In this document: positions 15,480 through 31,149 of the stretch, piece after piece
How positions within the stretch are numbered: the first letter of the stretch is position 1
Layout of the letters: every line of letters begins with the position of its first letter
Source of the DNA: Streptomyces cadmiisoli
Lineage (GTDB): Bacteria > Actinomycetota > Actinomycetes > Streptomycetales > Streptomycetaceae
DNA length: 64,000 nucleotides
Reading direction: 5' to 3'
NCBI RefSeq assembly: GCF_003261055.1
Contig: NZ_CP030073.1
Coordinates: 3,844,001-3,908,000, forward strand
Program-made: the position numbers and the translations under genes
Notes under the pieces: generated by a model
Database searches by the model: none
Seen by the model: the letters and a program-made list of their open reading frames with translations, nothing else
Told to the model about the DNA's origin: nothing

Positions 15480-15669
15480 GACGGGAAGGGTCCTCCGTGC
15501 GAGGGAACGAATCAGGTTGTGTCCGGCGCGGTACGGGCGAGTTGGGCCATTCGCGCCATGGACAAGGGTTCGATCCTCGCACGGGAGTCCCGAGGTTGCG
15601 CAAGCCCTCCGTTACCGATGGGTAGTCATATCCCCTTTCAGGGCGAACCCACCCGGTGCTCCCCGGTCG

Positions 15670-16851
15670 TCATGCGGTGTCCGGTATCGGAAGGGGACGC
15701 TTCTCGATGGCCGCCGCCATCACGTCCGGGAAGAGGTCGGGCGTACAGGCGAACGCCGGTGCGCCCAGTTCCGCGAGCGCCGCCGCGTGCTCGCGGTCGT
15801 ACGCCGGCGCCCCCTCGTCCGACAGCGCGAGCAGGGTCACGAACTGCACCCCGGACGCCTTCATCGCCGCGACCCGCCTCAGCATCTCGTTGCGTATCCC
15901 TCCCTCGTAGAGGTCGCTGATCAGCACGACAACCGTCTCGGCGGGCCGGGTGATCTGCGACTGGCAGTACGCCAGGGCCCGGTTGATGTCGGTGCCGCCA
16001 CCGAGTTGGGTACCGAAGAGGACGTCGACCGGGTCGTCGAGCTGGTCGGTGAGGTCGACGACCGCCGTGTCGAAGACGACGAGCCGGGTGCTGATCGACC
16101 GCATGGACGCCAGCACCGCTCCGAACACGGAGGCGTACACGACCGAAGCCGCCATCGAGCCGGACTGGTCGATGCAGAGGACGACCTCCTTCTTCACCGA
16201 CTGCGACGCCCGCCCGTAGCCGATGAGCCGCTCGGGCACGACGGTGCGGTACTCGGGGAGGTAGTGCTTGAGGTTGGCCGCGATCGTACGGTTCCAGTCG
16301 ATGTCTTGGTGGCGCGGCCGGTTCACGCGGGCGCTGCGGTCGAGGGCTCCGGTCAGGGTGGCCCGGGTGCGGGTCGCCAGCCGCTTCTCCAGGTCCTCGA
16401 CGACCTTGCGCACGACTGCTCGGGCCGTCTCCTTCGTCGTCTCCGGCATCGCCTTGTTCAGGGACAGCAGCGTGCCGACGAGGTGGACGTCCGCTTCCAC
16501 CGCCTCCAGCATCTCCGGCTCCAGCAGCAGGGCGGACAGCCCGAGCCGGTCGATGGCGTCGCGCTGCATGACCTGCACGACGGACGACGGGAAGTAGGTG
16601 CGGATGTCCCCCAGCCAACGGGCCACGGCCGGCGCCGACGCCCCGAGCCCCGCCGAACGGTCTTTCCCCGTCCTCGGTTTGTCCCCCTTTCCGTAGAGCG
16701 CGGCGAGCGTCCCGTCCATCGCGGCGTCCCGCCCGCCGAGCGCGCACCCCGTGCCGTCCGCCGCCTCACCGCCGAGCACCAGCCGCCAGCGGCGCAGCCG
16801 CTCCCGGGCGGCGTCGTCCGGCTCGGCCCCGGCTGTGGTCTGCGTCGTCAT
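15670..16851 (-). CDS. VWA-domain (CoxE-like) protein
   Basis: A 393-residue cytoplasmic protein. The N-terminal ~200 residues are helical. A von Willebrand A domain fills residues 221-390 with an intact MIDAS motif (Asp228-x-Ser230-x-Ser232 in LCIDQSGSM) and a later GGGTDINRAL Thr. VWA proteins of this type act as metal-dependent partners of MoxR-family AAA+ ATPases, and one is encoded two genes upstream. ATG at 16851 follows a GGAGGAGGA ribosome site; the longer open frame has no such support. It is the last gene of the minus-strand half of the divergent group. Confidence 0.88.
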   Translation of the reverse strand: MTTQTTAGAEPDDAARERLRRWRLVLGGEAADGTGCALGGRDAAMDGTLAALYGKGDKPRTGKDRSAGLGASAPAVARWLGDIRTYFPSSVVQVMQRDAIDRLGLSALLLEPEMLEAVEADVHLVGTLLSLNKAMPETTKETARAVVRKVVEDLEKRLATRTRATLTGALDRSARVNRPRHQDIDWNRTIAANLKHYLPEYRTVVPERLIGYGRASQSVKKEVVLCIDQSGSMAASVVYASVFGAVLASMRSISTRLVVFDTAVVDLTDQLDDPVDVLFGTQLGGGTDINRALAYCQSQITRPAETVVVLISDLYEGGIRNEMLRRVAAMKASGVQFVTLLALSDEGAPAYDREHAAALAELGAPAFACTPDLFPDVMAAAIEKRPLPIPDTA

Positions 16852-16927
16852 GCGTCCTCCTCCCCCGTGCACTCTCCCCGGTGGGCCGGCACGTCCGTCC
16901 CGCTCCCGCTGTCTCCGACTCGCCCGC

Positions 16928-19423
16928 TCATCCCGCCACCCCCACCAGCCCGGCGCCCTCGCCCGCTCCCGGCGCGTCCAGTCCCAACAGCAGCCGCACC
17001 ACCGGCTCCACACCCGCCGCGCGCTCCGCGTCGAGGTCCGGACCGAACCCGGGTGCGCCGGCTCCCGGGGCCGTCGTGCTCCCCCGCTGTCCCGGACCGC
17101 GCCGCACCAGCTCGCCGAGCGTTCTGCGCACGCCCGGTTCGTAGGCCGAGAAGGTGCGCCGCAGTAGCGGCAGCACATCCGTGAACGCCTCGGTGGACAC
17201 GCCGGTCAGCCAGCCGTCGACCAGCGCGAGCAGCCGCTCGTCGTGGATCAGCAGCATCCCGCCGCCTCCGCCGACGAAACCCTCGATCCACGCGGCGGAG
17301 TCCGCGGGTGGTGTACCGGCGGAAAGGGCGAGCCCCATCAGCCGGGCCGCCTCGTCCTGGGCCAGTTCCCCGTCGTCCAGCAGCAGCCGCACCGCACGCC
17401 CCTGGATGACTCCGGGAACCGTGTCCCGCGCCGACAGGATTCCGAGCACCCGGTGCCAGCGGTCGCGAAGGCCGCCGCCGTGTGCCGAGGCACGTCCGGG
17501 GCGGACGGTCTCGTCGAGCATCCCCACCGCGCCGTGCACCGCGTCCACATGGTCACGTATCTCCTGGGCCGCGTCCGTGTCGAGCGCCGCGCAGGCCGGG
17601 GGCAGACCGACGAAGATCCGCTCGGCGAGGCCGGCGGCGACGCCGGTCAGCGCCGAGGTGTCGGTGCCGCGCACATCGCCGTAGCGCAGTGACCGGACCA
17701 GGGCCGGCAGCGCCTGGGCGAGGTGGCCGACGTCCGTGTCGAGTGCCGCGCGGTCGGCGAGGATCCGCATCACCGCCGGGAGGGCGTCGGGCAGTTCGGC
17801 CAGCAGGCAGCGTTCGGCGAGCCCGGTGACCTCGGCCAGGCCCTGCGCCGAGGTGGCCTCGGTCTCCGCCCTGGCGGTCGCCGCGGCGAGCACGGTCGTC
17901 CCCCACACTCCGGCCTCCGCGACCCGGACGGACAACTCCGGCTCCCAGCGCAGCCGCCATGTCTCCCGGAAGGTTCCCGTGCTGCCGCGTGAGGCCACCG
18001 GCTCCCCCCAGGCGATGCCCAGCAGCCGCAGCCGGTGCAGCAGCCGACTGCGCCCGGCGTCCGTCTCCTTGCGCAGGTCGAGCTCCAGCTCCCGCTCCAA
18101 CGCCTCCGGTTTGAGCCGGAGCCGCCGCTGGAGCCGGGTGAGGTCGCGCTGCAACGGCACCGCCGGTGCCGCCTCCGGCACCTCGCCCAGTACGTCCCCC
18201 ACGACCAGCCGGTCGTGCACCAGGGCCAGCGGCACGTCCGAGCCCTCGCACATCACCGCCCGCACCGCGTCGGTGGTCTCGCCGAGACCGGCGAGCGGCC
18301 GTCCGCGCATCACGGCGAGCGTCTCGGCCAGCCGCACCGCCTCGATGACATGCGCCGAGGAGACGATCCGGTCCTCTTCGCGAAGCAGCCCCGCGACCTT
18401 GGTCATCCAGCGCGCCACCGGGCGGTCCGGGGCGGCGAACAGATGCCCGTACCACCCCGGCGAGTCGATGCCCGCGCCGTATCCGCTGGCCCGGGCCAGC
18501 CTGCGGTTGGTCCACGGCACCCAGGTCATGTCGACCTTGACCTTGGGCAGCCCCTTCACCAGGCTCCGGTCAGCGGTGACGGTGGTCCTCTGCCGCAGCG
18601 CCGGCACGTGCCACGCACCGCAGACCACGGCCACGCCGCTCTCGAACTCCCGCCGTGCGGCGCGGATCTGGAGCCGCATGTACGCCTCGCGCACCAGGTC
18701 GCGGTCGTGGCCGCCGCTCCCGTACACCTCGCGCAGGGCGGTCATGGCCTCCTCCAGCACGCCGAACGGTGCGAACGCGTCCTTCTCCCCCGGCCCTCGG
18801 TGCTCGACGACGTCCTCCCACCATCGCTCGGGGTCGTCGTACCCCGCGGTGCCGGCGAGCACGGCGAGCGGATCGACCCGGACGTCCACTTCATCGGCCG
18901 GGCTCCCGGCGCCACCCGCCGCTTCAGCCCTGTCCCCTTCCGCCTCGGTCCCCGCCTCCGCCTCCGCCTCCGCCTCCGCCTCCGCCTCCGTCTGCGTCTG
19001 CGTCTCCGCCTCGGGGGCGTCCCCGGCCGGGCCGTTGATCACCGGACCCGTCTCGGACTCTCCGTCCCACACCAGCGTGTGTGTGGCCGGCAGATCGATG
19101 AAGCGAGCGGGAACGTCGTGCTCCAGGGCCCAGCGGATCGCCACCCACTCGGGCGAGAACTCCGCCAGCGGCCAGAAGGCCGAACGGCCCGGTTCGTCCA
19201 CCGCGTGCGCGAGAAGGGCGACCGGTGGCCGCATGTCCTCCTCGGCGGCCAGCCCGATCAGCGCGTCGGCCTCGGGCGGCCCCTCGATCAGCACCACTCT
19301 TGGCAGAGCCGCGTCCAGTGCCGCCCGCACGGCACGGGCCGATCCCGGGCCGTGGTGCCGGACGCCGAGGAGCAACGGCTCCGCGGCGAGTCGCCCGGCT
19401 CGGGACTCCTCAGCGCCCGTCAC
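16928..19423 (-). CDS. DUF5682-family protein
   Basis: An 831-residue protein. The N-terminus (LLLGVRHHGPGSARAVRAAL, then VVLIEGPPEAD) has a TraB/EreA-like look, with paired His residues and a Glu that could form a catalytic or metal site. The rest is helical. Residues about 143-157 are a Glu-Ala repeat encoded by a CGCCTC-type hexamer run near 18952-18990. The start is GTG at 19423, preceded by GAGGGGGA. It sits between the MoxR ATPase (120 nt upstream) and the VWA protein (76 nt downstream), a conserved neighbourhood in many bacteria. Its molecular function is not established; from context it is a partner or effector of the MoxR-VWA pair. Confidence 0.82.
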   Translation of the reverse strand: MTGAEESRAGRLAAEPLLLGVRHHGPGSARAVRAALDAALPRVVLIEGPPEADALIGLAAEEDMRPPVALLAHAVDEPGRSAFWPLAEFSPEWVAIRWALEHDVPARFIDLPATHTLVWDGESETGPVINGPAGDAPEAETQTQTEAEAEAEAEAEAGTEAEGDRAEAAGGAGSPADEVDVRVDPLAVLAGTAGYDDPERWWEDVVEHRGPGEKDAFAPFGVLEEAMTALREVYGSGGHDRDLVREAYMRLQIRAARREFESGVAVVCGAWHVPALRQRTTVTADRSLVKGLPKVKVDMTWVPWTNRRLARASGYGAGIDSPGWYGHLFAAPDRPVARWMTKVAGLLREEDRIVSSAHVIEAVRLAETLAVMRGRPLAGLGETTDAVRAVMCEGSDVPLALVHDRLVVGDVLGEVPEAAPAVPLQRDLTRLQRRLRLKPEALERELELDLRKETDAGRSRLLHRLRLLGIAWGEPVASRGSTGTFRETWRLRWEPELSVRVAEAGVWGTTVLAAATARAETEATSAQGLAEVTGLAERCLLAELPDALPAVMRILADRAALDTDVGHLAQALPALVRSLRYGDVRGTDTSALTGVAAGLAERIFVGLPPACAALDTDAAQEIRDHVDAVHGAVGMLDETVRPGRASAHGGGLRDRWHRVLGILSARDTVPGVIQGRAVRLLLDDGELAQDEAARLMGLALSAGTPPADSAAWIEGFVGGGGGMLLIHDERLLALVDGWLTGVSTEAFTDVLPLLRRTFSAYEPGVRRTLGELVRRGPGQRGSTTAPGAGAPGFGPDLDAERAAGVEPVVRLLLGLDAPGAGEGAGLVGVAG

Positions 19424-19543: not shown

Positions 19544-20743
19544 TCACGAGCTCACCTCACGGCAGGCCCGGTAGAAGTCCTTCCAGCCGTCGCGCTCCCG
19601 GACGACCGCCTCCAAGTACTCCTGCCAGACGACCCGGTCGGCCGCGGGGTCTCGCACGACCGCGCCGAGGATGCCCGCGGCCACGTCGCCGGCTCGCAGC
19701 ACGCCGTCACCGAAGTGCGCCGCCAGCGCGAGGCCGTTGGTGACGACGGAGATCGCCTCGGCCGTGGACAGGGTGCCGCTCGGCGACTTCACCTTCGTGC
19801 GCCCGTCGGCCGTGACTCCGTCGCGCAGCTCCCGGAAGACGGTCACGACGCGGCGGATCTCGTCGATGCCGTCGGGCACGGCCGGCAGATCCAGGGAGCG
19901 GCCGATCTGGTCGACCCGGCGCGAGACGATGTCGACCTCGGCATCGACGCTCTCCGGTAGCGGGAGCACCACGGTGTTGAAGCGGCGGCGCAGGGCACTG
20001 GAGAGGTCGTTGACCCCGCGGTCCCGGTCGTTGGCCGTGGCGATCAGGTTGAACCCGCGGACCGCCTGCACCTCCTGGCCCAACTCCGGTATCGGCAGCG
20101 TCTTCTCCGACAGGATCGTGATCAGCGTGTCCTGCACGTCGGCCGGGATGCGGGTCAGCTCCTCGACGCGCGCCGTCATCCCCTCGGCCATCGCCCGCAT
20201 GACGGGGCTCGGCACCAGCGCGTCGCGGCTCGGGCCGTGGGCCAGCAGCTGCGCGTAGTTCCATCCGTACCGGATCGCCTCCTCCGGTGTGCCGGCCGTG
20301 CCCTGCACCAGGAGGGTGGAGTCGCCGCTGACCGCCGCGGCCAGGTGCTCGGAGACCCAGGTCTTCGCGGTGCCCGGCACGCCGAGCAGGAGCAGGGCGC
20401 GGTCGGTCGCGAGGGTGGTGACGGCGACCTCGACGATGCGGCGCGGGCCGACGTACTTCGGTGTGATGACCGTGCCGTCGGGCAGTGTGCCGCCGAGCAG
20501 ATAGGTCGCCACGGCCCACGGCGACAGCTTCCAGCGGGCCGGCCGCGGCCGGTCGTCCTGTGCGGCCAGGGCGGCGAGTTCGTCCGCGAAGGCGTCCTCG
20601 GCGTGCGCGCGTAGCACTTCCGCCGCGGATGCGGATGCGTGCGCGTCCGCGCCCGCGGTGATGAGGGTGTCCGCACCCGGGTTCGCGGGCGCGGACCCGT
20701 TCTGGCTCGGGTCGACGGACGTCGGTTCTGCGGACACAGACAT
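19544..20743 (-). CDS. MoxR-family AAA+ ATPase
   Basis: A 399-residue AAA+ ATPase. Walker A is GVPGTAKT (121-128). The Walker B equivalent is ARVEELTR, with Glu-Glu rather than Asp-Glu, and sensor 1 is FNLIATANDRD. The first ~60 residues are disordered and Ala-rich. MoxR ATPases remodel or activate client proteins together with VWA partners. ATG at 20743 lies about 9 nt after GGAGGGGG, which rules out the longer frame. It is the first gene of the minus-strand operon MoxR-DUF5682-VWA. Its promoter region contains a TTGTCAGTG element that mirrors the one driving the divergent SWIM gene. Confidence 0.93.
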   Translation of the reverse strand: MSVSAEPTSVDPSQNGSAPANPGADTLITAGADAHASASAAEVLRAHAEDAFADELAALAAQDDRPRPARWKLSPWAVATYLLGGTLPDGTVITPKYVGPRRIVEVAVTTLATDRALLLLGVPGTAKTWVSEHLAAAVSGDSTLLVQGTAGTPEEAIRYGWNYAQLLAHGPSRDALVPSPVMRAMAEGMTARVEELTRIPADVQDTLITILSEKTLPIPELGQEVQAVRGFNLIATANDRDRGVNDLSSALRRRFNTVVLPLPESVDAEVDIVSRRVDQIGRSLDLPAVPDGIDEIRRVVTVFRELRDGVTADGRTKVKSPSGTLSTAEAISVVTNGLALAAHFGDGVLRAGDVAAGILGAVVRDPAADRVVWQEYLEAVVRERDGWKDFYRACREVSS

Positions 20744-20786
20744 GGCTGAGTCCCCCTCCAGCTCGGCCGGTTCTGATCTGCCCACA

Positions 20787-20869
20787 ACGGTGCACCACGC
20801 CACTGACAATGCGGTCTGACCTGCGGAAATGTCCACACGAGGTCGATTGTCAGTGGTGGGATCTACCTT
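20787..20869. promoter_or_regulatory. Paired divergent DNA-damage-type promoters (RecA-NDp motif)
   Basis: On the plus strand, TTGTCAGTG (20847-20855), 8 nt, then TACCTT (20864-20869) matches the actinobacterial RecA-independent damage promoter tTGTCRGTG-N8-TAnnnT exactly and places the start of transcription at the SWIM ATG (20877). On the minus strand, TTGTCAGTG (20809-20801), 8 nt, then CACCGT (20792-20787) matches except for the first T of the hexamer, and would drive the MoxR operon with a ~36-nt leader. The two elements form a perfect 11-bp inverted repeat (20800-20810 and 20846-20856). In mycobacteria this motif is read by PafBC. Confidence 0.8.
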
Positions 20870-20876
20870 CGATGTC

Positions 20877-22232
20877 ATGACTCAGCAGGGGGCGCGCTGG
20901 ACGGCGGACCAGGTGCTGGCACTGGCGCCTGACACCGCGTCACGCAAAGCGGGAAGCAAACTCGGCGCGGCGGGGCCGTGGTCCGAGGGGGGCAGTTCTG
21001 ACGAGGGGACGGTGTGGGGGCTGTGCAAGGGCAGCGGCAGCAAGCCGTATCGGACGGTCGTCGACATCGCGGACGCGTCGGGTCCCGCCTACAAGTGCAC
21101 CTGTCCGAGCCGCAAGTTCCCGTGCAAGCACGCACTCGGGCTGCTGCTGCTCTGGGCGAGCGGGGACGCCGCGGTGGCGTCAGGCACGGCGCCGGACTGG
21201 GCGGAGCAGTGGACAGAGGGGAGACGGAAGCGTTCCGCGGAAAAGCGTGCGGCGGGCGCGGACGGTTCCCCGGCCGGTTCGGCGGATCCGGAGGCCGCGC
21301 GGCGCAGGGCGGAGCGCCGGGCCGAGCGGATCACCGCGGGCGCGACGGAGCTGGAGCAGCGTCTGACCGACCTGTTGCGCAGCGGCCTGGCCACGGCCGA
21401 GCACGCGGGATACGGGCTGTGGGAGGAGACCGCGGCCCGCATGGTCGACGCCCAGGCACCCGGGCTGGCGGCTCGGGTGCGGGAGCTGGGTGCCATCCCG
21501 GCGTCCGGTCCCGGCTGGCCGGTGCGGCTGCTGGAGGAGTGCGCCCTGCTCCACCTCCTCGACCAGGGCTGGCTGCGCCGTGACGAGCTTCCCGAGGAGC
21601 TCGCGGCCACGGTCGGTTCCCGGGTCGGCCTGCCCACGTCGGCACAGGGCCCACCGGTGCGGGACCGCTGGCTGGTCCTCGCCCAGTACGACGTGGCGGA
21701 CGCCCGCCTGACGACCCGCCGGATCTGGCTGTACGGCTCAGACTCCGGCCGCACGGCTCTCCTTCTTTCCTATGGCGCGGCCGGCCGCGCTCCCGAACTC
21801 GCCCTGCCGGTGGGCCTCGCCCTGGAGGCGGATCTGCTGCCCTACCCGGGTGCGGGCCAACGGCGCGCGGCCCTCGGCGAGCAGTTCGCGACGGCCGCCC
21901 CGACCGCGGTACGTCCACCGGGAGTGACGACGACCCGTGCCGCCGTCGCCTACGGCGAGGCTCTCCGCACCGACCCGTGGCTCACCTCGGTGCCGGTGAC
22001 GCTGGACCGGGTCATACCGACGCCCGACGGCGACTCCTGGCAGCTGTCGGACGCCGACGAGGACGCTGCGCTCCCGCTGACGCCCGCCGCCCGCTCACGC
22101 CCCGGCCTCTGGCGACTCGTCGCGCTCTCGGGCGGAGCCCCCGTCAAGGTCTTCGGCGAGTGCGGCCATCAGGGCTTCACACCGCTGACTGCCTGGCCGG
22201 CCGGCGAGGGCATTCCGATCCACCTGTCCTGA
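20877..22232 (+). CDS. SWIM zinc-finger protein
   Basis: A 451-residue protein with a SWIM zinc finger near the N-terminus: Cys74-x-Cys76, then Cys83-x-His85 (YKCTCPSRKFPCKHALGLLL). SWIM modules bind DNA or protein and recur in MoxR/VWA gene groups. The C-terminal 300 residues are Ala/Glu-rich and helical, with no known catalytic motif. I place the start at ATG 20877. It has no ribosome site but lies about 7 nt after the -10 element, so the message is probably leaderless. It is first in an operon with the DUF5691 gene and divergent from the MoxR operon. Confidence 0.88.
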   Translation: MTQQGARWTADQVLALAPDTASRKAGSKLGAAGPWSEGGSSDEGTVWGLCKGSGSKPYRTVVDIADASGPAYKCTCPSRKFPCKHALGLLLLWASGDAAVASGTAPDWAEQWTEGRRKRSAEKRAAGADGSPAGSADPEAARRRAERRAERITAGATELEQRLTDLLRSGLATAEHAGYGLWEETAARMVDAQAPGLAARVRELGAIPASGPGWPVRLLEECALLHLLDQGWLRRDELPEELAATVGSRVGLPTSAQGPPVRDRWLVLAQYDVADARLTTRRIWLYGSDSGRTALLLSYGAAGRAPELALPVGLALEADLLPYPGAGQRRAALGEQFATAAPTAVRPPGVTTTRAAVAYGEALRTDPWLTSVPVTLDRVIPTPDGDSWQLSDADEDAALPLTPAARSRPGLWRLVALSGGAPVKVFGECGHQGFTPLTAWPAGEGIPIHLS

Positions 22233-28452: not shown

Positions 28453-30927
28453 CTACAGCTTCTCGACCGGCGCGTACCTCAGCAGCAGACGCTTCGGCTT
28501 CGTGTCCCCGAAGTCGATGGTCGCCTCGGCGTTCCCGCCGGTGCCCTTCACCGCGACGACGGTGCCGAGCCCGAACTGGTCGTGGGTCACCCGGTCCCCC
28601 ACCGCGAGGGAGACCACCGGCTTCTCCGACGTCCTGCGGGTGGCGAACCCGGACGCGCCCGACGCCGACGAGCGGGACCGGGACGAGGACAGGGATGCCG
28701 CCACCGGCGAGACCGGGCCGGCCGGTGCCGCGCCGCCGCCCGTGCGCTTCCAGTCCACGTGCGCCGGGGGGATCTCCTCCAGGAACCGGGAGGGCGGGTT
28801 GTAAGACGGCTGCCCCCAGGCGCTGCGCATCGCCGAGCGGGTCAGATACAGCCGCTCACGCGCGCGCGTGATGCCGACGTACGCCAGGCGGCGCTCCTCC
28901 TCCAGCTCCTTGTTCTCGCCGAGGGCGCGCATGTGCGGGAACACGCCGTCCTCCATGCCGGTCAGGAAGACGACCGGGAACTCCAGGCCCTTGGCGGTGT
29001 GCAGGGTCATCAGGGTGATGACGCCGTCGCCCCCCTCGTCGTCCGGGATCTGGTCGGAGTCGGCGACCAGGGCGACCTGCTCCAGGAAGTCGGACAGCGT
29101 GCCCGACTCGCCCTCGCCGCGCTCCTGCTCGAACTCCAGGGCCACGGCGGCGAGTTCCTGGAGGTTCTCGATGCGGGTCTCGTCCTGCGGGTCGGTGGAC
29201 GCCTGGAGCTCGGCGAGGTAGCCGGTGCGCTCCAGCACGGCTTCCAGGATGGTGGCGGGTCCGGCGCCGGACTCGACGATCGTCCGGAGGTCCTCCATGA
29301 GCGTGTTGAAGCGCTTCACGGCGTTCGTGGAGCGGGCGGCCATGCCGTACGCCTCGTCGACCCGCTTCAGCGCCTGCGGGAAGCTGATCCGCTCCCGCTG
29401 GGCGAGGGCGTCGACCATCGCCTCCGCGCGGTCGCCGATGCCGCGCTTGGGGACGTTCAGGATGCGGCGCAGCGGGACCGAGTCCTCCGGGTTGGACAGC
29501 ACCCGCAGGTAGGCCAGGACGTCCCGGACCTCCTTGCGCTCGTAGAAGCGGACGCCGCCGACGACCTTGTAGGGCAGGCCGACGCGGATGAAGACCTCCT
29601 CGAAGACACGGGACTGGGCGTTCGTGCGGTAGAAGACGGCGACGTCGCCGGACTTCGCCTCGCCCGTGTCCGTGAGGCGGTCTATCTCGTCGGCGACGAA
29701 CTGCGCCTCGTCGTGCTCGGTGTCGGCCACGTAGCCGGTGATGCGGGCGCCGGCGCCCGCATTGGTCCACAGGTTCTTGGGGCGGCGGGACTCGTTGCGC
29801 TCGATGACGGCGTTGGCCGCGGTGAGGATCGTCTGGGTGGAGCGGTAGTTCTGCTCCAGCAGGATCGTCGTCGCGTCCGGGTAGTCCTCCTCGAACTGGA
29901 GGATGTTGCGGATCGTCGCGCCGCGGAAGGCGTAGATCGACTGGTCGGCGTCGCCCACCACGCACAGCTCGGCGGGGGGCAGGTCGTCCGGGCCGGGCGG
30001 TACGTCCTCGTCGTGCGTGCCGGTGCCGACGAGTTCGCGCACCAGGGCGTACTGGGCGTGGTTGGTGTCCTGGTACTCGTCGACGAGGACGTGGCGGAAG
30101 CGGCGGCGGTAGTGCTCGGCGACGTCCGGGAAGGCGCGCAGCAGATTGACCGTCGTCATGATCAGGTCGTCGAAGTCGAGCGCGTTCGCCTCGCGCAGCC
30201 GCGACTGGTACAGGGCGTAGGCCTGGGCGAGGGTCTTCTCGAAGCCGTCGGTGGCCTGGGCGGCGAAGTCCTCCTCGTCGATCAGCTCGTTCTTCAGGTT
30301 GCTGATCTTGGCGCTGAAGGACTTCGGCGGATAGCGCTTGGGGTCGAGGTCCAGGTCGCGGCAGACCAGGGCCATCAGGCGCTTGCTGTCGGCGGCGTCG
30401 TAGATCGAGAACGACGAGGTGAAGCCGAGCCTCTTGCTCTCGCGGCGCAGGATCCGCACGCACGCGCTGTGGAAGGTCATGACCCACATGGCGTTCGCGC
30501 GCGGGCCGACGAGGTGCTCGACGCGCTCCTTCATCTCGCCGGCGGCCTTGTTGGTGAAGGTGATCGCGAGGACCTGGCCGGGGTGCACCCCCCGCTCGGC
30601 GAGCAGGTACGCGATGCGGTGGGTGAGCACGCGGGTCTTGCCGGAGCCGGCGCCGGCCACGATCAGCAGCGGGGAGCCGGAGTGGACGACGGCGGCGCCC
30701 TGGTTGTCGTTGAGCCCCTCCAGGAGCGCGGCGGAGTCCACGGCGGGGCGCGGGGCGCCGTCGCGGTAGTACGCGTCGCGGTCCGGGGGCGCGTCGAACT
30801 TCCCGCCGAACAGATCGTCCGGGACCGGCTCCGGTACGTGATCGTCCTCGGGCGGCGGCGGGGGCTCCTCGTGGGCCCGCGGGGCCTGGAGGTCCGCCAG
30901 GAAGCTGTCGTCAAAGAGGCTGCTCAT
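28453..30927 (-). CDS. pcrA: ATP-dependent DNA helicase PcrA (UvrD/Rep family)
   Basis: An 824-residue superfamily-1A 3'-5' helicase that acts in repair, in replication restart and in removing RecA or RNA polymerase from DNA. Walker A is AGAGSGKT at about 91-98. The Q-motif segment LNDNQGAAV precedes it, Walker B is VLVDEYQDTNH, and later motifs include QNYRSTQTIL and VLTGMEDGVFPH-type sequence. The first ~60 residues are a streptomycete-type acidic extension, and the C-terminus ends with the RNA-polymerase-binding, Tudor-like segment (VGDRVTHDQFGLGTVVAV). ATG is at 30927. It is divergent from the NlpC/P60 gene and has its own terminator. Confidence 0.97.
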   Translation of the reverse strand: MSSLFDDSFLADLQAPRAHEEPPPPPEDDHVPEPVPDDLFGGKFDAPPDRDAYYRDGAPRPAVDSAALLEGLNDNQGAAVVHSGSPLLIVAGAGSGKTRVLTHRIAYLLAERGVHPGQVLAITFTNKAAGEMKERVEHLVGPRANAMWVMTFHSACVRILRRESKRLGFTSSFSIYDAADSKRLMALVCRDLDLDPKRYPPKSFSAKISNLKNELIDEEDFAAQATDGFEKTLAQAYALYQSRLREANALDFDDLIMTTVNLLRAFPDVAEHYRRRFRHVLVDEYQDTNHAQYALVRELVGTGTHDEDVPPGPDDLPPAELCVVGDADQSIYAFRGATIRNILQFEEDYPDATTILLEQNYRSTQTILTAANAVIERNESRRPKNLWTNAGAGARITGYVADTEHDEAQFVADEIDRLTDTGEAKSGDVAVFYRTNAQSRVFEEVFIRVGLPYKVVGGVRFYERKEVRDVLAYLRVLSNPEDSVPLRRILNVPKRGIGDRAEAMVDALAQRERISFPQALKRVDEAYGMAARSTNAVKRFNTLMEDLRTIVESGAGPATILEAVLERTGYLAELQASTDPQDETRIENLQELAAVALEFEQERGEGESGTLSDFLEQVALVADSDQIPDDEGGDGVITLMTLHTAKGLEFPVVFLTGMEDGVFPHMRALGENKELEEERRLAYVGITRARERLYLTRSAMRSAWGQPSYNPPSRFLEEIPPAHVDWKRTGGGAAPAGPVSPVAASLSSSRSRSSASGASGFATRRTSEKPVVSLAVGDRVTHDQFGLGTVVAVKGTGGNAEATIDFGDTKPKRLLLRYAPVEKL

Positions 30928-31149
30928 CGCTCTCCGAGTCTAGGGCGCCCCACCGACAACCCGGGGCCGCCCCGGGAACATCGCGGCGGGAACGTGTTCG
31001 ATCTTGAGCGGTGAGGCGGGCGTCACATCGCCCCCGGGGGCCGGCGACCTGCGGGTCCCTTCCGCCTCACCCTCCGGCGGCGCCCCGCTACCGCCCGCAA
31101 CCACTGACTGAAGGTCACGAAAATGTATCGGGCATATCACCCACCAACC

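Follow-up and report, generated by a model that had tools for sequence, protein, structure and literature searches.

The region between the divergent moxR and SWIM genes of Streptomyces cadmiisoli probably contains two promoters that stand back to back, act independently of each other and belong to the RecA-independent DNA-damage response of actinobacteria. They are placed over a five-gene set whose products probably form one machine. The analysis covered the window, which is the whole stretch of 64,000 nucleotides studied, the host genome of 10.2 Mb (two contigs), and relatives within and beyond the genus. The multi-protein system is conserved and uncharacterised, and it is evolutionary rather than single-site evidence that ties it to DNA damage. 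The first-pass annotation had already interpreted the elements as damage promoters, and this is supported by conservation in orthologues, by pafB and pafC genes near pafA and by the presence of the motif before many repair genes. The promoter kind was known before, also in Streptomyces; new here are CAGGTC as a conserved element and a spacer whose length is quantised in steps of about 12 bp.

The MoxR/SWIM intergenic region and its genes

The rightward element consists of TTGTCAGTG (20847-20855), eight nucleotides (20856-20863) and TACCTT (20864-20869), an exact match to TTGTCRGTG-N8-TANNNT in both its -26 motif and the 8-nt spacing to the -10, in a genome that encodes pafB and pafC and in which repair genes carry the motif upstream. 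The -10 is followed by 7 nt and the SWIM ATG (20877), in agreement with the predicted start at 20876-20877, and the SWIM-DUF5691 mRNA should therefore be leaderless; among the 80 loci with the exact motif (window included, L074 excluded), this gap is 7 nt in 78 and 6 nt in 2. On the minus strand, TTGTCAGTG (20809-20801) is followed by eight nucleotides (20800-20793) and CACCGT (20792-20787), which departs from TANNNT by a single mismatch, T to C. This element has the TTGTCRGTG -26 motif, and was kept out of the strict members because its -10 at N8 is CACCGT rather than TANNNT. The two copies of TTGTCAGTG point away from each other, and the perfect 11-bp inverted repeat that they form has the arms CCACTGACAAT (20800-20810) and ATTGTCAGTGG (20846-20856). 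The first-pass annotation had described an exact rightward element, a leftward one off by one base and an 11-bp inverted repeat, and each description held (Table 1).

Table 1. Promoter elements, associated features and genes in the window.
Feature	Position	Strand	Detail
PafBC-type / RecA-NDp promoter, SWIM-DUF5691 operon	20847..20869	+	-26 motif TTGTCAGTG, N8, -10 TACCTT
PafBC-like promoter, MoxR-DUF5682-VWA operon	20787..20809	-	TTGTCAGTG, N8 ending TG, -10 CACCGT (TGCANNNT subclass)
Conserved third element TTTCCGCAGGTCAGA	20815..20829	-	CAGGTC 9 nt before TGTC of MoxR promoter
11-bp inverted repeat formed by both motifs	20800..20856	.	37 bp between the two TTGTCAGTG
Shine-Dalgarno-like GGAGGGGGA	20751..20759	-	within predicted MoxR leader, ~37 nt
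Exact motif TTGTCGGTG-N8-TAGACT	30937..30959	-	9 nt 5' of ATG, UvrD/PcrA-like helicase gene (28453-30927)
MoxR-type AAA+ ATPase (AAA_5), 399 aa	19544..20743	-	
DUF5682 protein, 831 aa	16928..19423	-	
VWA_CoxE protein	15670..17178	-	open frame; true start internal, near DUF5682 stop
SWIM zinc-finger protein, 451 aa	20877..22232	+	first gene of plus operon
DUF5691 protein, 557 aa	22327..24000	+	

The window has two matches to TGTCRGTGN{7,9}TANNNT, where chance would give 0.03, and the motif before the uvrD-like gene, the other strict match in the window, served as an internal positive control. A chance match without function, for which only the small size of the motif speaks, is contradicted by this expectation as well as by conservation and position, and its probability is close to nil. 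Control by LexA and the SOS response, with the motif as an incidental feature, is extremely unlikely. It would fit a report that in several genes a RecA-NDp promoter is accompanied by an SOS box (PMC8223512), but a simplified SOS-box pattern, GAACNNNNGTTC with at most one mismatch, has no site within 20744-20876, although it has 28 in the whole window versus 17 expected. An Rfam search of 20500-21100 gave no match to a structured RNA.

The minus operon encodes MoxR, then DUF5682 and then the CoxE-type VWA protein, while the plus operon encodes SWIM followed by DUF5691. VWA_CoxE proteins are usual partners of MoxR-type ATPases. The best match of MoxR in a PDB sequence search was midasin, an AAA+ protein (6e-14), followed more weakly by NorQ (3e-8); DUF5682 had no match in this search and DUF5691 only chance-level ones. 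Pfam and PDB sequence searches of the five proteins found no link to a known repair protein. NCBIfam had no family for SWIM, DUF5691 or DUF5682, and matched MoxR to two models far below their cut-offs, and PADLOC gave 0 matches for 7 proteins; in both searches the VWA query was a wrong-frame ORF (15638-16747). Across 30 aligned DUF5682 sequences, GxRHHGPGSAR and PE are near-invariant and EGP, CGA and H272 invariant, and we take the conserved HH, E and H motifs to be reminiscent of TIKI/TraB-type enzymes. Deinobacterium chartae and a control genome of E. coli also have DUF5682 matches, and the E. coli yehLMPQ genes may be relatives; a literature search with the yeh names, judged by title and abstract, found no paper on their function. 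A second, divergent DUF5682 (97.7 bits) is part of a 1309-aa frame on the second contig of the host (L260, G000:C2:286800-288467). The open-access literature searched yielded no mention of DUF5682 or DUF5691, and no link between SWIM, MoxR and DUF5682/DUF5691 appeared among the papers listed by a literature search.

Conservation of the SWIM promoter and gene order outside Streptomyces

The 80 named loci compared with the window were the best 80 of 517 confirmed relatives, all of them from Streptomyces with SWIM proteins 77-86% identical, and the conservation count is therefore weighted to near kin. Of these 81 loci (80 fetched plus the window), 80 have an exact plus motif, the exception being L074, a draft in which the motif is broken and reads TTGTCATGG. 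In a class-wide sample, the motif was present with at most one mismatch in 27/27 same-genus loci, the window's own included (25 aligned, together with G206 and G223, whose SWIM starts did not align and whose motifs proved exact on a later check), and in 4 of the 25 it lies 28-110 nt, rather than 7, upstream of the aligned SWIM start. A SWIM match was found in 26 of the 27 other same-genus genomes of this sample, G512 being the one without.

In another actinobacterial family, f17, in which the SWIM protein is 36-46% identical where the start aligns, the motif was present with at most two mismatches 6-8 nt before the GTG in 15 of the first 18 loci, against a background in which 0.1% of 10,616 windows reach that level. 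Six further f17 rows, whose SWIM match had stopped short of the start or had not been retrieved, were added later and comprised five with at most two mismatches and one without the motif (G408); five of the six rows were searched over up to 1,200 nt, so that chance is larger there than in the first 18. In total, 20/24 SWIM genes of this family have the motif with at most two mismatches and 4/24 with 3-5, although several of the loci come from one genus and the 24 are therefore not 24 independent lineages. At the SWIM start, the 12 loci of families f4, f18, f26 and f42 show 3-7 mismatches; G511 (f18) has 3, and G395 (f4) has no motif at the start and a one-mismatch site without a nearby start codon. 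Six f18 loci (L203, L204, L206, L207, L211 and L282) carry TGTCGGAGG-N8-CANNNT at the SWIM start, with 3 mismatches, a possible local form of the motif. Absence of the motif from orthologous loci, set beforehand by the first-pass annotation as grounds for abandoning its reading, was not borne out by the counts for Streptomyces and f17, and the minus motif too is kept in all 81 Streptomyces loci, with the same single difference.

Gene order differs between the genus and its relatives. In 13 non-Streptomyces loci (8 of them f17), the genes follow the order SWIM, DUF5691, MoxR, DUF5682, VWA on one strand, with all five present in 12 (DUF5691 was undetected in L222, from f42), and in f17 a single motif stands before the whole row. 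The best matches upstream of the other four genes in these non-genus loci have 4-7 mismatches (10-12 starts per gene), compared with 0-7 upstream of SWIM, and a one-mismatch site in L219 lies inside the DUF5691 gene, away from gene starts. Seven larger Streptomyces loci and the window are all divergent. On the simplest reading, a single operon under a damage promoter was apparently divided in the Streptomyces lineage, and both halves would then have come to carry this promoter type. The five proteins probably form one machine, because in other families all five are encoded in a row under a single promoter of this kind and because both Streptomyces halves, after the presumed split, carry it. 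Since twin damage-type promoters drive halves that are kept together elsewhere behind one, the arrangement suggests that the machine belongs to the bacterial DNA-damage response.

The inverted repeat could also be read as an operator for a dimeric regulator of both operons, in line with its arms, which are perfect over 11 bp, and with their spacing, which is quantised in 82/87 loci as if phase mattered. The arms, however, are 569-631 bp apart in three Streptomyces (G494, G547 and G210) and 125-171 bp apart in two more, f17 has its single motif at the head of the gene row, and the 66 exact sites of the host genome include just one further pair standing back to back within 200 bp. In M. smegmatis, moreover, PafBC without RNA polymerase is reported not to bind promoter DNA (PMC11804915). 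Loci with distant arms keep the minus motif beside moxR (with one mismatch in L227 and L228 and two in L226); each promoter therefore appears to move together with the gene that it serves, and this speaks against an operator made of two arms. Because the arms are far apart in some relatives and other families have a single promoter, the repeat gives no sign of acting as a unit. The operator was rejected as very improbable, and two back-to-back promoters are preferred.

Outside the genus, the pattern TTGTCRGNG-N8-TANNNT has 61 sites versus 7 controls in 11 genomes, sparser than within Streptomyces. The same scan gave 46 versus 5 in eight f17 genomes; G454 had none, and G470 had no excess (2 versus 2). 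Of 20 f17 sites inspected (12 of 13 in G436, 7 of 10 in G537 and 1 of 10 in G519), eight precede relatives of genes under the motif in the host: radA-like and uvrD genes and the second SWIM gene, SWIM2 (two each), an AlkZ-like gene and a dinG-like helicase gene. One further site lies after rpsF and before what we read as an ssb-like gene, and the other 11 had no relative in the query set. In the host genome SWIM2 adjoins a DUF7824/DUF7825 protein and has the exact motif together with GCAGGTC (L132 / L244:7184-7205, minus strand); in two f17 genomes (L272 and L273), the exact motif is found 6-7 nt before its start.

The leftward -10 and the CAGGTC element

The minus motif is present in 81/81 Streptomyces loci, everywhere with CANNNT and never with TANNNT, and its -10 is TGCANNNT in 80 of them (L082 differs). 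The N8 ahead of this -10 is unusually conserved, mostly as GYGTGGTG. A scan for TTGTCRGTG-N8-VANNNT gave 38 sites versus 4 controls, and TGTCRGTG-N6-TGCANNNT gave 91 versus 7 in 13 same-genus genomes, the host included, and 18 versus 4 in 8 further genomes of the order. Nine TGCANNNT-type sites occur in the host genome, one of which is that of moxR. At each of the other eight an ORF begins between -2 and 32 nt away, with an ATG at about 6-7 nt in six cases; the genes concerned include those for NAD-dependent DNA ligase, Lhr helicase and a pentapeptide-repeat protein (six of the eight were Pfam-scanned). This enrichment and these gene positions identify the minus element as a variant promoter of a real subclass: judged from its distribution, the TGCANNNT -10 is a genus-wide subclass, and a reading as a decayed site is discounted. 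The base reported as missing by the first-pass annotation belongs to this -10 subclass.

It is rather unlikely that only the rightward element is a damage promoter, and that the leftward one, sharing nothing but the -26 motif, depends on a different sigma factor or activator or is constitutive. The invariable CANNNT, the conserved N8, the extra CAGGTC and the predicted presence of a leader on the leftward but not on the rightward transcript would all fit such a division. The enrichment of TGTCRGTG-N6-TGCANNNT and its place about 6-7 nt before the DNA ligase and lhr genes weigh against it, making the subclass look like the same promoter kind, and CAGGTC stands at the same distance before two canonical TANNNT sites as well. 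Two damage promoters, one of them with a variant -10, therefore remain the preferred reading.

The CAGGTC element, read as GACCTG opposite the moxR strand, is present in 101/109 spacers (a few genomes being included twice) compared with 1.7% of shuffled spacers. In 95 rows the distance from the moxR-side motif to GACCTG or GGCCTG is 8-9 nt, with outliers at 20 nt (4 rows from 3 genomes), 31 nt (2 rows from 1 genome) and 4 nt (one row), and in four loci CAGGTC is instead 8 nt from the SWIM-side motif. Elsewhere in the host genome, GCAGGTC is found 8-9 nt upstream of two exact TANNNT promoters, those of SWIM2 and a SUKH-4 gene, and 21 nt upstream of a third, that of an ABC transporter, while CAGGTC is found 8 nt upstream of the TGCANNNT promoter of lhr. 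No description of the TGCANNNT subclass or of a CAGGTC accessory element was found in the literature examined.

The spacer between the motifs varies in steps. Among 87 distinct Streptomyces loci, its length is 36-38 (34 loci), 48-49 (22), 59-61 (25) or 71 bp (1), so that 82 fall into four classes and never between them, the other 5 exceeding 120 bp. The steps are of about 12 bp (mean about 11.8), although the spacer sequence (20810-20846 in the window) diverges, and a quick SWIM tree with many weak forks implies at least 17 changes between classes. The exact pair occurs in 157/295 genomes, with spacers of 36-38, 47-50 and 60-61 bp by eye among the matches listed; the 138 same-genus genomes without an exact pair were left aside and the class-wide sample was used in their place. 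Codons of an extended SWIM frame were rejected as a source of 12-bp steps, since lengths also vary by single bases, and plain B-DNA helical phasing fits poorly (about 11.8 versus 10.5 bp). Inspection of the spacers by eye gave no clear case of a 12-bp duplication.

Genes under the motif and known damage-response systems

A genome-wide scan, proposed by the first-pass annotation, supported its reading: TGTCRGTGN8TANNNT has 66 exact sites in the host versus 1 for a backwards-read control pattern, many of them before repair genes. In 14 other same-genus genomes there are 671 sites versus 9 controls, with 29 to 76 per genome and an excess in 14/14. By raw count, an open frame with a GC3 codon signal (a simple streptomycete signal) begins no more than 80 nt downstream of 60/66 host sites, and no more than 14 nt downstream of 38. 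Pfam scanning at E <=1e-8 covered 2 + 50 downstream ORFs, with L019 scanned additionally at a looser cut-off; of the 66, five usable ORFs went unscanned and eight sites were left out (1 duplicate, 2 without an ORF, 5 with a doubtful ORF).

Sixteen repair or replication genes of the host are under the motif, including recA (with two sites), uvrA, uvrB, uvrD, xseA, dnaX, dnaE, ruvC, rarA/mgsA and the genes for a UvrD-like helicase, uracil-DNA glycosylase, an AlkZ-like glycosylase, O6-methylguanine methyltransferase, a RecD2-HHH protein, a PD-(D/E)XK nuclease and a RadA-like ATPase (assigned by its domains). The remaining motif genes are mixed or unknown and include an ABC transporter, phosphoglucomutase and folB. 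The pafB and pafC genes, called as a WYL gene and an HTH_PafC+WYL gene side by side, lie two genes and 1.8 kb after pafA (Pup_ligase), and a DEAD-box helicase gene 3 kb past pafC also has the motif.

Other motif sites stand near genes of different kinds. A DUF3375 gene, which we take to belong to the JetA family of Wadjet defence, has an exact motif 38 nt upstream and is present in two identical copies near both ends of the main contig (L001 and L140). A second back-to-back TGTCRGTGN8TANNNT pair, with C instead of T as its first base (L003, L004; L246:6762-6847), is flanked by a macrodomain gene and by a frame of 558 aa, in which residues 1-499 had no Pfam match. The motif is also found at a gene for a WGR-domain and beta-propeller protein on the second contig (L145, G000:C2:491848), and at TerD (L122) and SUKH-4 (L115) genes.

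The mechanism that we propose borrows its first steps from mycobacteria. Damage would produce single-stranded DNA, which PafBC would bind, allowing RNA polymerase with the housekeeping sigma factor to start at the TTGTCAGTG (-26) motif. Rightward transcription would give the leaderless SWIM-DUF5691 mRNA, and leftward transcription a leadered MoxR-DUF5682-VWA mRNA by way of the variant -10 TGCANNNT, with CAGGTC 8-9 nt upstream of the motif. Both operons would thus be induced by DNA damage through PafBC, and both halves of the system would rise together. The weakest step concerns the machine itself, which is probably engaged in damage-related protein remodelling, the MoxR ATPase and its CoxE-like VWA partner possibly working on DUF5682 or activating it, and SWIM serving as an adaptor that binds zinc. 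It is about equally easy to accept or to doubt that SWIM-DUF5691-MoxR-DUF5682-VWA is an undescribed core arm of the damage response, with a damage promoter that was retained and then doubled at the split, SWIM2 as a sister, TGCANNNT as a -10 subclass and CAGGTC as an accessory element upstream of the -26 motif. The same even balance applies to what such an arm would be, namely a damage-induced AAA+/VWA machine for which SWIM2 with DUF7824/7825, under the same promoter in two families, would represent a sister system.

The gene set resembles the MoxR-vWA ternary conflict systems (Kaur et al. 2020, PMC7159879) in combining a MoxR ATPase with a VWA partner, but the bpMoxR score here is 22.9 bits, below the cut-off of 27, which places MoxR outside that class. 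A term search of the main text of PMC7159879 returned no SWIM, DUF5682, DUF5691 or DNA damage, and profile searches of the five proteins found no beta-propeller. NorQ/NorD-type MoxR-VWA chaperones are similar in that MoxR matches NorQ in PDB and the VWA gene is CoxE-like, whereas the best PDB match here is midasin and the partners are DUF5682, DUF5691 and SWIM.

RecA-NDp promoters are reportedly the subject of work by Ahel in 2002 and Gamulin in 2004. Defined by TTGTCRGTG-N8-TANNNT, they lie upstream of repair genes, also in Streptomyces (PMC5087735, PMC9411070), and the S. coelicolor macrodomain gene SCO6735, which has such a promoter, rises five-fold after UV (PMC5087735). The elements described here share this motif and the same company of repair genes, and differ in that they form a back-to-back pair over a set of uncharacterised genes and in that the leftward one has a TGCANNNT -10 with CAGGTC upstream. 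A literature search on the motif gave unrelated papers among the matches listed.

PafBC of M. smegmatis, once activated by single-stranded DNA, joins SigA RNA polymerase at -26-motif promoters (PMC11804915), the motif being read by PafB on the housekeeping holoenzyme (PMC11804915, PMC8223512). The host likewise has pafBC genes near pafA, but it is a Streptomyces, whereas PafBC dependence is described for mycobacteria; among the papers listed by literature searches, none was seen to show it in a Streptomyces. A paper on LexA of S. venezuelae states that an initial search suggested the PafBC motif not to be conserved there, and that a RecA/LexA-independent response in Streptomyces remains to be shown (PMC9380542). 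In contrast to that suggestion, the motif is in excess in 14/14 same-genus genomes here, and a RecA/LexA-independent response in Streptomyces is likely, given these site numbers and, in the host, the position of sites before main repair genes.
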